Virus record (IMG/VR): IMGVR_UViG_3300025138_007798
Coordinates: 1-22,309 of that record
From: a virus
Length of the DNA: 22,309 bases
Strand: one strand, 5' to 3'
Positions within the stretch are counted from its first letter, which is position 1; each line of letters starts with the position of its first letter. The notes under the pieces are model-generated. The model searched no databases and had not been told where the DNA came from. It saw only the letters and a list, made by a program, of their open reading frames with translations. The position numbers and the translations under genes are program-made. This document shows positions 18,181-22,081 of the stretch, piece by piece.

Positions 18181-18438
18181 ATGGTACAAGCAATAAAATT
18201 TTACGCAGATTGGTGCGGGCCCTGTAAAGTCTATAACAAAATATGGACTAAGGTAGAAAGTGAATTAAGTGGTAAAGTTGAATTTAAGAGTATTAATATT
18301 GAAAAAGATACTACAGGTTTAGCAGCGGAATATAAAGTTAGATCGATACCATTTACAGTGATTATAGACGAAGAAGGTAAATCTACTTCTAAGACAGGTT
18401 TAATAAAAGAAGCAGAATTAAAAGCACTTTTAAAATAA
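18181..18438 (+). CDS. Thioredoxin
   Basis: This 85-residue thioredoxin fold has the active site WCGPC at 11-15 and the cis-proline in 'SIPF' (P57). It is shorter than bacterial thioredoxin (about 108) because the first strand and helix are trimmed, which is common in phage thioredoxins and glutaredoxin-like proteins. It would reduce the C-terminal cysteine pair of the phage NrdA just upstream. The short distance between its promoter-like element and the ATG leaves almost no 5' leader. Confidence 0.92.
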   Translation: MVQAIKFYADWCGPCKVYNKIWTKVESELSGKVEFKSINIEKDTTGLAAEYKVRSIPFTVIIDEEGKSTSKTGLIKEAELKALLK

Positions 18439-18464: not shown

Positions 18465-18764
18465 ATGTTACGAAAACCAGATTCAATACCCGCTAACGAT
18501 ACTATCGTTCAAGACCCTAGTATGGAACCTTTCTTTATCAGTAAATCTTCAACAGGAGGTTACACAGTATACGAAAGAGTAATTAAAGGAGAAAATAATA
18601 CAGAGTATATTAAGACTGTATGTTATCCTGCAAACTTCTCCTATGCTTTAAAGAAAGTTGCAGAAGAAAAATTAAATCAAAAAAAGAGTTATAGTTCAAT
18701 TAAAGAGTACGTCGATACATATGACAGTATAAGTAAAACTATGACAAATATAATTAATATATAA
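18465..18764 (+). CDS. Conserved-looking unknown phage protein
   Basis: This 99-residue soluble protein has no clear domain. Visible features are 'DPSMEPFFISKSSTGGYTVYERV' (an antiparallel-strand pattern), 'YIKTVCYPANFSYALKKVAEEKL' and a helical C-terminus 'SIKEYVDTYDSISKTM'. Small proteins with this 'PFFI...GYTV.E' pattern are familiar from T4-like phages, but no function is known to me. It lies between the thioredoxin and queC-like genes, with a 26-nt gap before it. Confidence 0.65.
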   Translation: MLRKPDSIPANDTIVQDPSMEPFFISKSSTGGYTVYERVIKGENNTEYIKTVCYPANFSYALKKVAEEKLNQKKSYSSIKEYVDTYDSISKTMTNIINI

Positions 18765-18812: not shown

Positions 18813-19613
18813 ATGGCAAAACATGTAGTTGTAAGTCTTAGTGGAGGGATGGACTCCTCAACATTGTTATTAAGAGCATTAAAAGAATATGATACCGTAA
18901 CTGGTATTTCATTCGATTATGGTCAAAAGCATAGAGTAGAGCTAGAAAGAGCTCAACAGTTAATTAACTATCTTGCTGATAATGGTCACAAAGTAAATTA
19001 TCGTCAAATTCAACTTAACGGATTAGTAGATCTATTAGACTCAGCTCTAGTAGTAGGTGGCGATGATGTACCTGAAGGTCATTATGAGAATGATAATATG
19101 AAAGAAACAGTTGTACCTAATAGGAATAAGATGTTTGCTTCTATTACTCAAGCAGTAGCTTTATCTATAGCAAATAAATCAGAAGAAACTTGTGATATCG
19201 CTCTAGGTATTCATGCTGGAGATCATGCAGTATACCCAGACTGTAGACAAGAGTTTAGAGATGCAGATGATGCTGCTTTTAGAGAAGGAAATTGGGATGC
19301 AGATAGAGTAGGGTACTTTACTCCTTATTTAGATACTGATAAATTTGGTATCTTACAAGATGGAGAAATACTTTGCGCTAAATTAAAAATCGACTTTAAT
19401 GAAGTTTATAAGAGAACGAATACTTCTTACAAGCCTTATCCTTCAGGAAATAGCGATTATAAGTCTGCTTCTAGTGTTGAGAGGATTGAGGCTTTTATTG
19501 CTCTTGGCAGAAAAGATCCCGTACAGTATGAGGATGAAACTGGAGAAGTGGATTACGAGGTAGCAGAATCGCATGTAAAACAAATACTTGCAGATCATGT
19601 TGGTCCATGTTAA
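18813..19613 (+). CDS. queC: QueC-like 7-deazaguanine pathway enzyme lacking the zinc cysteines
   Basis: This 266-residue protein belongs to the QueC (7-cyano-7-deazaguanine synthase) family by its PP-loop 'SLSGGMDSST' (8-17), 'FDYGQKHRVEL', 'VVPNRNKMF' (101-108) and 'YPDCRQEF' (141-148). QueC normally uses ATP and ammonia to make the nitrile of preQ0 from CDG. Oddity: where QueC has C-x8-C-x2-C-x2-C zinc ligands, this protein has S205, S214, K217 and S220 at the same spacing, followed by the intact 'VERIEAF' helix. The rest of the fold appears kept, with extra residues around 155-170. It may still bind ATP but catalyse a changed reaction or be stabilised without zinc. queD and queE lie about 0.6 kb downstream. 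Confidence 0.85.
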   Translation: MAKHVVVSLSGGMDSSTLLLRALKEYDTVTGISFDYGQKHRVELERAQQLINYLADNGHKVNYRQIQLNGLVDLLDSALVVGGDDVPEGHYENDNMKETVVPNRNKMFASITQAVALSIANKSEETCDIALGIHAGDHAVYPDCRQEFRDADDAAFREGNWDADRVGYFTPYLDTDKFGILQDGEILCAKLKIDFNEVYKRTNTSYKPYPSGNSDYKSASSVERIEAFIALGRKDPVQYEDETGEVDYEVAESHVKQILADHVGPC

Positions 19614-19816: not shown

Positions 19817-19890
19817 GGGGGATTAGCTCAGCTGGCTAGAGCGCCTGCCTTGCACGCAGGAGGTCATCGGTTCGACTCCGATATTCTCCA
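19817..19890 (+). tRNA. tRNA-Ala (anticodon TGC)
   Basis: A complete cloverleaf can be drawn. The acceptor stem is GGGGGAT/ATTCTCC, including the G3-U70 pair that defines alanine tRNAs. The D stem is GCTC/GAGC, the anticodon stem CCTGC/GCAGG with loop CTTGCAC, and the T arm ATCGG-TTCGACT-CCGAT, with discriminator A at 19890. The 3' CCA is not encoded (CAA follows), so it must be added by the host enzyme. It lies inside the 7-deazaguanine cassette. Confidence 0.95.
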
Positions 19891-19926
19891 CAATGTTAAT
19901 CAATAAAAATTAGACATGAAAAAAGT

Positions 19927-20251: not shown

Positions 20252-20716
20252 ATGGGAAAATTTCAATCAACAAAAGTATTTGACGGCTTTAGTACAGTAT
20301 TCCGTCAATGGAAAGCAACAACTACTCACTGTTCTAAATTACATGGATACGGAGTATCATTTAAAATCTGGTTTGAAGGAGAATTAGATGATAGAAACTG
20401 GGTATGGGACTTCGGAGGTATGAAGAGAGCAAAAGGCACTATCGACGGTATGTCCCCTAAAGCATGGATGGATTATATGTTTGATCATACCTTTATAGTA
20501 GCAGAAGATGACCCCTATAAAGAATCATTCCTACAAATGGACAAAGCTAAAGTAGCACAAGTAAGAGTAATTCCTGCAACAGGAGCAGAAAGTTTTGCTA
20601 AGTTTATTTTTGATAATATAAATCCATTTATAGAAGCAGAAACAGAAGGAAGAGTTAAAATTACTCAAGTAGAATTTAGAGAACACGGAAAAAATACAGC
20701 ATCATATGTCGCATAA
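20252..20716 (+). CDS. queD: QueD-like 6-carboxytetrahydropterin synthase, zinc site altered
   Basis: This 154-residue PTPS-family protein would convert 7,8-dihydroneopterin triphosphate to 6-carboxytetrahydropterin, the substrate of QueE. Catalytic residues are visible: C27 in 'THCSKLHGYG', D78-H79 in 'FDHTF' and E144 in 'EFREHGKNTASY'. 'WDFGGMK' and 'ATGAESFAKFIF' match the pterin-binding strands and the 'PTAENLA' helix. Of the three family zinc histidines, only H31 of 'LHGH' is clear: the second is Y33 (HGYG), and the first His of 'FSAAH' is F17. H26 next to the catalytic cysteine might substitute. The 3' end overlaps queE by 11 nt, so they are translationally linked. Confidence 0.85.
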   Translation: MGKFQSTKVFDGFSTVFRQWKATTTHCSKLHGYGVSFKIWFEGELDDRNWVWDFGGMKRAKGTIDGMSPKAWMDYMFDHTFIVAEDDPYKESFLQMDKAKVAQVRVIPATGAESFAKFIFDNINPFIEAETEGRVKITQVEFREHGKNTASYVA

Positions 20717-21494
20717 GCAATTAAAAAGAGTTACAGACTACGAAAAGAATTTACCTATAGTAGAAATTTATACAGCGGTACAATCAGAAGGTTCTAGAGC
20801 AGGATATCCAACAGTAGTAATTAGAACCACAGGATGTACTCATAGATGCTTCTTCGGTGAAGGAGGATGGTGTGATAGTTGGTACACAAGTATACACCCT
20901 GAAAAAGGACATTTTAACTTTAAAGACATTATTGCAATGTATGAGAAAAATCCTCATATAAAAGAAATGATGCTAACAGGAGGATCACCAACTATGCATC
21001 CTGCTTTAGTAAATGAATTAACACATTTTGCACATGAAAACAATATTTTTATTACTATCGAAACTGAAGGAAGTCACTTCTTACCCACAGATTACCCTAT
21101 TAATTTGTTATCTATTAGCCCTAAGTTTTCTAATTCTGTTCCAGTACTGGGAGTAGAAACTCCTCAAGGAGCTATCACAGATCAAAGAATGATAGACAGA
21201 CATAATAAACTTAGACTTAATTATGAATCTATAAAACAATCAATAGCATACCATTCAGATTTTCATATAAAACCAGTATGGGACGGTAAAGATAAAGCTG
21301 CTTTAGCAGAGATTATGGAATGTTTGGGGATACTCAATGTTTCTCAAGATAAAGTTTGGTTTATGCCAGCTGGAGATTCTAGGGAAGCATTATTTAAATC
21401 ATATCCTATACTATTTGACTGGGTAAGAGATAATGGTTATAGAATGACTTGGAGACCTCATATTATTGCTTTTGAAGACCAACGTGAAGTATAA
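20706..21494 (+). CDS. queE: QueE-like radical SAM 7-carboxy-7-deazaguanine synthase, unusual cluster motif
   Basis: This 262-residue protein begins like QueE: 'EIYTAVQSEGSRAGYPTVVIRTTGC'. The radical SAM cysteines are C44, C48 and C56, spaced CX3CX7C instead of the usual CX3CX2C, due to a 'FGEGG' insertion between the second and third. 'TGGSP' (91-95) stands for the SAM-binding GGEP motif with Glu replaced by Ser. 'LLSISPKFS' matches the conserved SPK segment. It would contract the pterin ring to CDG using SAM and a reduced flavodoxin or similar electron donor. It overlaps queD by 11 nt at its start and the next gene by one base (TAATG) at its end. The family call is strong; the exact reaction is inferred. 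Confidence 0.85.
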   Translation: MSHKQLKRVTDYEKNLPIVEIYTAVQSEGSRAGYPTVVIRTTGCTHRCFFGEGGWCDSWYTSIHPEKGHFNFKDIIAMYEKNPHIKEMMLTGGSPTMHPALVNELTHFAHENNIFITIETEGSHFLPTDYPINLLSISPKFSNSVPVLGVETPQGAITDQRMIDRHNKLRLNYESIKQSIAYHSDFHIKPVWDGKDKAALAEIMECLGILNVSQDKVWFMPAGDSREALFKSYPILFDWVRDNGYRMTWRPHIIAFEDQREV

Positions 21495-22081
21495 TGAAAA
21501 AGGAGTTTAAACATTTAGTAATAATCGGCCACCCTGACCATAAATCTTTTTGCTATAATGGTATATTTAAGACTATTATAAGACAATTAAGAAAGCATAA
21601 AGAAGTATTCAAGGTTATTGATGTATATGATGATAAACTTCATCGTGATAGAACTGAATTAATTAAAGAGTATAAGAAATTAGTTACTTGGTCAACACAC
21701 ATCTACTTTATATCACCAGTTTGGTGGTTTAGACTTGTACCTAAAATGGAAACTTTCTTCGATGAGGTATTTACACCGGGGTTTGCATATAAGTTTGTAC
21801 CGGTTTTTAGTATGTACGCATATCCAAAACCATTCCTAAGTGATAAGAAAGTTAGAACATACATTACACATGGAGCACCGATGTTACCCGTTATTACCTT
21901 ATACCTTAATTCAGTTAAGTTGAGATTAGTAATGGGGGTATATACTTTTGTTTTTGGATGGAACTTAAATAGATGGAGAAAGACTAAGCAATTTTGGTCT
22001 GTACCATTTGTAGATGCAAAGAAACGAGCAAAATACTTACGGGTAGTAAAGGAAGATATTAGAAATGATTTAGGTTTATAA
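21494..22081 (+). CDS. Flavodoxin-fold NAD(P)H oxidoreductase (quinone reductase type)
   Basis: This 195-residue member of the Flavodoxin_2 / NAD(P)H dehydrogenase (quinone) family has 'LVIIGHPDHKSFCYNGIF' as the FMN/FAD phosphate loop. 'HIYFISPVWWFRLVPKMETFFDEVFTPGFAYKF' follows and is the hallmark 'PVWWY..P..LK.W.DRVFTPGFAY' motif of this family. 'YITHGAPM' corresponds to the usual 'TTGG' flavin loop. It would pass electrons from NAD(P)H to an acceptor by a two-electron route. Its start overlaps the queE stop by one base, so it is probably co-translated. It might support QueE, which needs reducing power, but family members are not known to me as radical SAM reductants. Its role in phage infection is open. 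Confidence 0.85.
   Translation: MKKEFKHLVIIGHPDHKSFCYNGIFKTIIRQLRKHKEVFKVIDVYDDKLHRDRTELIKEYKKLVTWSTHIYFISPVWWFRLVPKMETFFDEVFTPGFAYKFVPVFSMYAYPKPFLSDKKVRTYITHGAPMLPVITLYLNSVKLRLVMGVYTFVFGWNLNRWRKTKQFWSVPFVDAKKRAKYLRVVKEDIRNDLGL

Follow-up and report, generated by a model that had tools for sequence, protein, structure and literature searches.

A phage QueC-like protein without zinc-site cysteines and its probable place in preQ0 synthesis

A 2026 survey of the QueC family calls the zinc motif a hallmark of QueC (PMC13329287). Here we analysed a stretch of viral DNA of 22,309 nucleotides (hereafter, the window) that encodes a QueC-like protein in which no cysteine is found at the zinc-ligand positions, so that the motif C(x)8CxxCxxC is absent, and asked whether such a protein still makes preQ0. 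The first-pass annotation of the locus had left two explanations side by side, a stable variant that works without zinc and an enzyme of altered chemistry with another end product.

The window QueC and its replaced zinc site

The window, a 22.3-kb virus record, contains phage tail and replication genes together with ribonucleotide reductase and thioredoxin. The QueC-like gene is an intact open reading frame of 266 codons that spans exactly positions 18813–19613 of the plus strand, on which all of the features described below also lie. Its 266-aa product scored 125.5 bits against Pfam PF06508 (QueC; gathering cut-off, 22 bits) and 149.9 bits against PHROG 1550, and reached 122.4 bits against the TIGR00364 QueC equivalog, short of the cut-off of 150.3 bits.

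The motifs listed as kept in the first-pass annotation (PP-loop, VPNRN, YPDC and VERIEAF) are all present. The PP-loop of the ATP site (SGGMDS, residues 10–15; 18840–18857), which is kept across the family, is followed by YGQKHRVE (residues 36–43; 18918–18941), a match to YxQxHxxE, and then by VPNRN (residues 101–105; 19113–19127) and YPDC (residues 141–144; 19233–19244). In E. coli QueC, residues Y35, R99, Y131 and Y189 are essential by mutagenesis (Libby et al. 2026, PMC13329287). By alignment, these correspond to Y36, R104, Y141 and Y206 of the window QueC, the last of which directly follows the first lost ligand, and the conserved E. coli K165 corresponds to K177. Each of the five residues is kept in 234–235 of the 235 zinc-site-free proteins, with Y141 replaced by F in one sequence.

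An alignment anchored on the shared ER[IL]EAF motif pairs the E. coli ligands C188, C197, C200 and C203 with S205, D215, S218 and S221 of the window QueC, which mark out the former zinc loop (residues 205–221; 19425–19475) with the spacing S-x9-D-x2-S-x2-S. That all four zinc cysteines are replaced, as had been proposed, holds in either residue register. Of the sites originally named (S205, S214, K217 and S220), S205 stands but the other three are off by one, and the alignment behind them was not free of gaps as claimed, since that register needs a one-residue gap before VERIEAF. The pattern S-D-[ST]-[SD] at the ligand positions is common to 136 related proteins. The same ligand substitutions as in the window are found in Flavobacterium phage vB_FspM_immuto_2-6A, the nearest isolate by QueC (YP_010114440; 70% identity), which has a longer loop between SYKP and SDYK and whose record reads plainly ‘7-cyano-7-deazaguanine synthase’, with the zinc loss unmentioned.

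Among the 81 closest IMG/VR loci (70–100% identity to the window QueC), TNTSYKP…SDYKSASSVER is invariant, and the piece between TSYKP and SDYK is between about 5 and about 40 residues long. The median dN/dS of the QueC gene is 0.12 (118 pairs), and the gene is under purifying selection. The invariant replacement residues, taken with this ratio, indicate that the change at the zinc site is a fixed, selected replacement. A degenerate or artefactual gene, produced by sequencing error or decay, would explain the missing motif and has that alone in its favour; the invariance across 81 contigs and the dN/dS of 0.12 rule out sequencing error or a pseudogene, in line with the earlier judgement that an error was unlikely, and together with the intact catalytic residues and the conserved operon they reduce the probability of this explanation to almost nothing.

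The AlphaFold2 model of the window QueC had a mean pLDDT of 91.9. The former zinc loop, for which a structure prediction had been suggested, was modelled at a mean pLDDT of 90–91 over residues 201–220, a value that is blind to the presence of metal, as AlphaFold draws a tidy loop with or without it. The top structural match of the model (residues 2–233) was QueC 3bl5 (Z 19.7, rmsd 2.5 over 190 residues), which places the protein in the QueC fold, and further matches were Cap9 9nto (Z 19.1) and QueC 2pg3 (Z 18.8). Cap9 is thus structurally as close as QueC, and it keeps the QueC catalytic core (PMC13329287), as would suit a deazaguanylation ligase of the Cap9/QatC kind that attaches CDG to protein. 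Such a ligase is highly improbable here. Both Cap9 and QatC keep the zinc cysteines (PMC13329287, PMC13279940), whereas the window QueC lacks them; the gene neighbours in this family are QueD, QueE, FolE, DpdA and QueF, and no CD-NTase or QatA/B/D is annotated in the immuto genome or the window. Neither the Cap9 signature of type IV CBASS, CE(x)6CxxCxxCxD with a neighbouring CD-NTase, nor that of QatC, C(x)19CGxCxxRR with N- and C-terminal extensions and qatA/B/D neighbours, was found in this protein of 266 aa, which keeps the QueC motifs.

The window protein shares with canonical QueC, the preQ0 synthase of PF06508 cluster 1 (represented by E. coli b0444, B. subtilis 3BL5 and 2PG3), the fold, the PP-loop, YxQxHxxE, VPxRN, YPDC, the essential Tyr after the first ligand and the linkage to queD and queE. 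It differs in the four replaced cysteines, the score below the TIGR00364 cut-off, the variable loop and a longer C-terminal tail. The zinc-site-free variant fails the zinc-motif and equivalog tests but very probably works like QueC.

Gene neighbourhoods in phages

The gene order of the window, NrdB-NrdA-Trx-orf99-QueC-orf89-QueD-QueE, is that of a type of neighbourhood that we call class A, marked by synteny through the thioredoxin-like protein (18181–18438; Pfam Thioredoxin) and the 99-aa open reading frame directly 5′ of QueC (18465–18764). Between QueC and QueD lies a tRNA-Ala(TGC) (19817–19891; ARAGORN), followed by the QueD-like protein (20252–20716; Pfam PTPS, 54 bits; PHROG 2389), in which a canonical zinc His is changed in the alignment, the QueE-like radical SAM protein of the type that makes CDG (20706–21494; PHROG 2076, 179.4 bits) and a flavodoxin-fold protein (21494–22081; Pfam Flavodoxin_2), which adjoins QueE here and is also found near QueC in several relatives. 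In relatives with the class A order, the next genes encode FolE, a PRA-PH-like hydrolase, DpdA, a formyltransferase and QueF. The window ends before FolE, DpdA and QueF, and these genes were read in relatives only; by analogy, its own FolE, DpdA, formyltransferase and QueF would lie beyond its end.

Phage immuto_2-6A encodes FolE, QueD, QueE, a zinc-site-free QueC, DpdA, QueF and a formyltransferase. We examined 21 long records with a zinc-site-free QueC, of which 12 (class A) carry an immuto-type DpdA, and all 12 of these also carry a two-domain QueF and the formyltransferase. QueF is a reductase that acts on preQ0. Both QueF domains are present in the immuto protein, the 11 other class A QueFs are 62–68% identical to it, and the aligned class A QueFs keep the NADPH motif (VESKSIKLYLNSFN / ESKSIKLYLNSF) and the Cys/Asp motif NCRVTNQPDW. 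The class A DpdA family was modelled as a tRNA-guanine transglycosylase (TGT) fold (pLDDT 94.6), with TGT 2pot as the best PDB match (E 1.2e-8); a BLASTP comparison of the immuto-type DpdA with that of phage phiSM gave no match. The class A formyltransferase may correspond to DpdN (Cui et al. 2023) and would then produce a formylated dPreQ1. Since the relatives with the window gene order carry QueF, a TGT-fold DpdA and the formyltransferase, they need preQ0.

Exactly one QueC was found in each of the 21 long records, which rules out a hidden second canonical QueC in these phages. The preQ0 used by the phage QueF might in theory come from a QueC of the host, an objection that is void for the cells described below, in which a zinc-free QueC is the only QueC.

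In a further 7 of the 21 records (class B), the gene immediately upstream of QueC encodes a different DpdA, 32–37% identical to that of class A, and no QueF passes the cut-off, with a weak sub-threshold QueF match in one; in the fragments of the other two, neither DpdA type nor QueF is present. These seven records would fit a half-way enzyme that stops at ADG (7-amido-7-deazaguanine), the lost loop being needed for the nitrile-forming second step. ADG is the QueC intermediate, and dADG occurs in Campylobacter phage DNA (cited in PMC6884629). The QueCs of the Campylobacter phages, however, keep all four cysteines, so that ADG does not need zinc loss, and the idea that a missing zinc site marks ADG is ruled out. 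Furthermore, the relatives with QueF require the nitrile, and the cells whose sole QueC is zinc-free have TGT and QueF, or TGT in archaea. We regard an enzyme that stops at ADG as unlikely; the end base of class B in particular may differ, being preQ0 or ADG. Closely related phage QueCs (L003–L081) lie beside either of the two DpdA types, at different places. QueF and the formyltransferase accompany only one of the two types, and the pattern looks as if phages exchange the final DNA base while the preQ0 core stays constant.

Cellular relatives and loss of the zinc site

Scanning bacterial and archaeal genomes, we identified cellular QueCs without zinc cysteines (42–56% identity) in Poseidoniia (marine group II) archaea, namely Poseidoniales and Thalassarchaeaceae, and among bacteria in some Pirellulaceae, Neomarinimicrobiota and Fastidiosibacteraceae, the last including the cultured Cysteiniphilum and Facilibium. 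The zinc-free protein is the only full-length QueC in the 38 cellular genomes examined; no second canonical QueC was found, the other PF06508 matches being weak, partial and mostly in longer open reading frames. TGT is present in 37 of the 38 genomes and QueF in 20 of the 21 bacterial ones, and QueF above the cut-off was found in none of the 17 archaeal genomes, as expected for the queuosine and archaeosine pathways, respectively. In the archaea the operon order is folE-queE-queC-queD, and in Fastidiosibacteraceae queC adjoins queD-queE on the opposite strand. The zinc-free motif occurred in 67 of 89 sampled genomes of one archaeal class and in 2 of 248 sampled genomes of a planctomycete class (reversed control pattern, 0 in both), the latter count ruling out a general planctomycete trait.

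In these cells, a product other than preQ0 is hard to accommodate. Of the two explanations offered at the outset, altered chemistry with another end product is not supported: the same family serves QueF-encoding phages, and it provides the sole QueC both of bacteria that have TGT together with QueF and of archaea with TGT and the folE-queE-queC-queD operon. The stable zinc-free variant, by contrast, has gained strong support, as the protein is conserved, under purifying selection, confidently folded, widespread and has arisen more than once. We consider it highly likely that the window protein is a zinc-site-free QueC that still makes preQ0, a product inferred from the QueF/TGT linkage and from its status as sole copy.

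One particular form of altered chemistry is a DpdL-type CDG decarboxylase that gives 7-deazaguanine. DpdL is reportedly the name that Cui et al. gave in 2023 to a predicted CDG decarboxylase, and a QueC fold with part of its site lost is a plausible source of such an enzyme. Against it stand the intact ATP site, the presence of all known catalytic residues, the QueF linkage and the role as the sole QueC of cells with TGT/QueF, and we judge a decarboxylase to be very unlikely. In the open-licence literature searched, no description of DpdL or of a zinc-independent QueC was found.

Two observations concern the wider set of sequences. In three marine group II proteins (L162, L170 and L204), QueC is C-terminally fused to a methionine sulfoxide reductase B (SelR) domain. 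In addition, contigs from metagenome-assembled genomes (MAGs) labelled Pelagibacter, Woesearchaeota and Flavobacteriaceae (L145–L152) encode a phage-type QueC (63–82% identity), several of them with DpdA; they are probably phage contigs binned into MAGs and were left out of the cellular counts.

A phylogeny with QueC, as the first-pass annotation had suggested, was built from 115 QueCs with the zinc-loop columns excluded, as a quick tree whose branches carry SH-aLRT values only. It grouped the window, immuto and other phage QueCs with those of Fastidiosibacteraceae in a 9-row clade without zinc cysteines (SH-aLRT 99), itself part of a 41-row clade (support 100) that also holds the archaeal/planctomycete group and four cysteine-keeping proteins. 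The RHEph06-type phage QueCs (24 rows, support 99) and the zinc-free L308/L311 were placed elsewhere, and both of these other zinc-free viral lineages have members beside QueF and DpdA. On this tree, which gives no direction of change, the state of the zinc site needs six changes, at least four of them forced by supported branches. The replacement residues at the former ligands differ between the zinc-free groups, as expected if the losses were separate, and such losses are more likely than a regain of four cysteines. The zinc site therefore appears to have been lost several times in QueC, at any rate more than once.

The RHEph06-type QueC resembles that of the window in lacking the zinc cysteines and, in several relatives, in lying beside QueF and DpdA; it differs in its separate place on the tree and in its other replacement residues. 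Within this family (L226–L261), two members, L254 (59% identical) and L260, keep all four cysteines, and relatives 50–60% identical to them have none, a mixture that could stem from several losses or from a C-terminal segment exchanged by recombination. The best match in the phage collection outside the immuto phages was the QueC of a Rosebush-group mycobacteriophage (TA17A; 36% identity), which, unlike the window QueC, keeps all four zinc cysteines; Rosebush DNA carries dPreQ0 (PMC6884629).

Proposed reaction path and the role of zinc

For a zinc-site-free QueC that makes preQ0, we propose the following path. ATP bound in the PP-loop would adenylate the carboxylate of CDG, supplied by the neighbouring QueE, the adenylated CDG would react with ammonia to give ADG, and a second ATP would serve to dehydrate ADG to preQ0. 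Meanwhile, the former zinc loop with the essential Y206 would be held by protein packing between TSYKP and SDYKSASSVER. QueF of this phage would most likely reduce preQ0 to preQ1, which the TGT-fold DpdA would insert into DNA and which might also be formylated; the modified base would confer resistance to host restriction. The absence of metal, the packing of the loop and the final DNA base are likewise what we infer. Counting against a zinc-free reading, zinc is reported to be needed by canonical QueC (PMC13329287).

A clade that lacks the site, provides the only QueC of many genomes and has arisen more than once suggests that zinc stands outside the chemistry and is replaceable by packing. 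The clade challenges the zinc motif as a hallmark of the family and offers natural variants for testing the role of zinc in QueC. Genuine preQ0 synthases will be overlooked or misinterpreted if annotation relies on the zinc motif or the equivalog cut-off, and for phages the clade argues that loss of the zinc site by itself does not predict a new DNA base.

The QueD-like protein of the window has F for the first canonical zinc His, HGY for HGH and one additional His ahead of the catalytic Cys, and the same changes are seen in phages immuto, phiSM and RHEph06 and in Fastidiosibacteraceae. Going by these residues, the QueD zinc site was possibly rebuilt or lost, and the extra histidine may take over. 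As a reason for the loss in QueC, zinc economy has some appeal: in Neisseria meningitidis, queC is listed in the regulon of the zinc regulator Zur (table in PMC6103462). One could imagine a largely zinc-independent preQ0 route, with QueC stripped of its zinc site several times and QueD, in many of the same operons, of two of its three canonical zinc histidines; low zinc would then have remodelled the pathway repeatedly in marine microbes and phages, in the way that FolE2 takes the place of FolE. We hold this to be rather doubtful. Simple zinc economy is not established and is offered as a hypothesis only, since the FolE encoded in these operons retains its zinc ligands, the extra histidine of QueD may substitute for those lost, and a rhizobium phage belongs to the RHEph06 clade. 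Among the phage loci with a QueD, the HGY type was found in 73 of 74.
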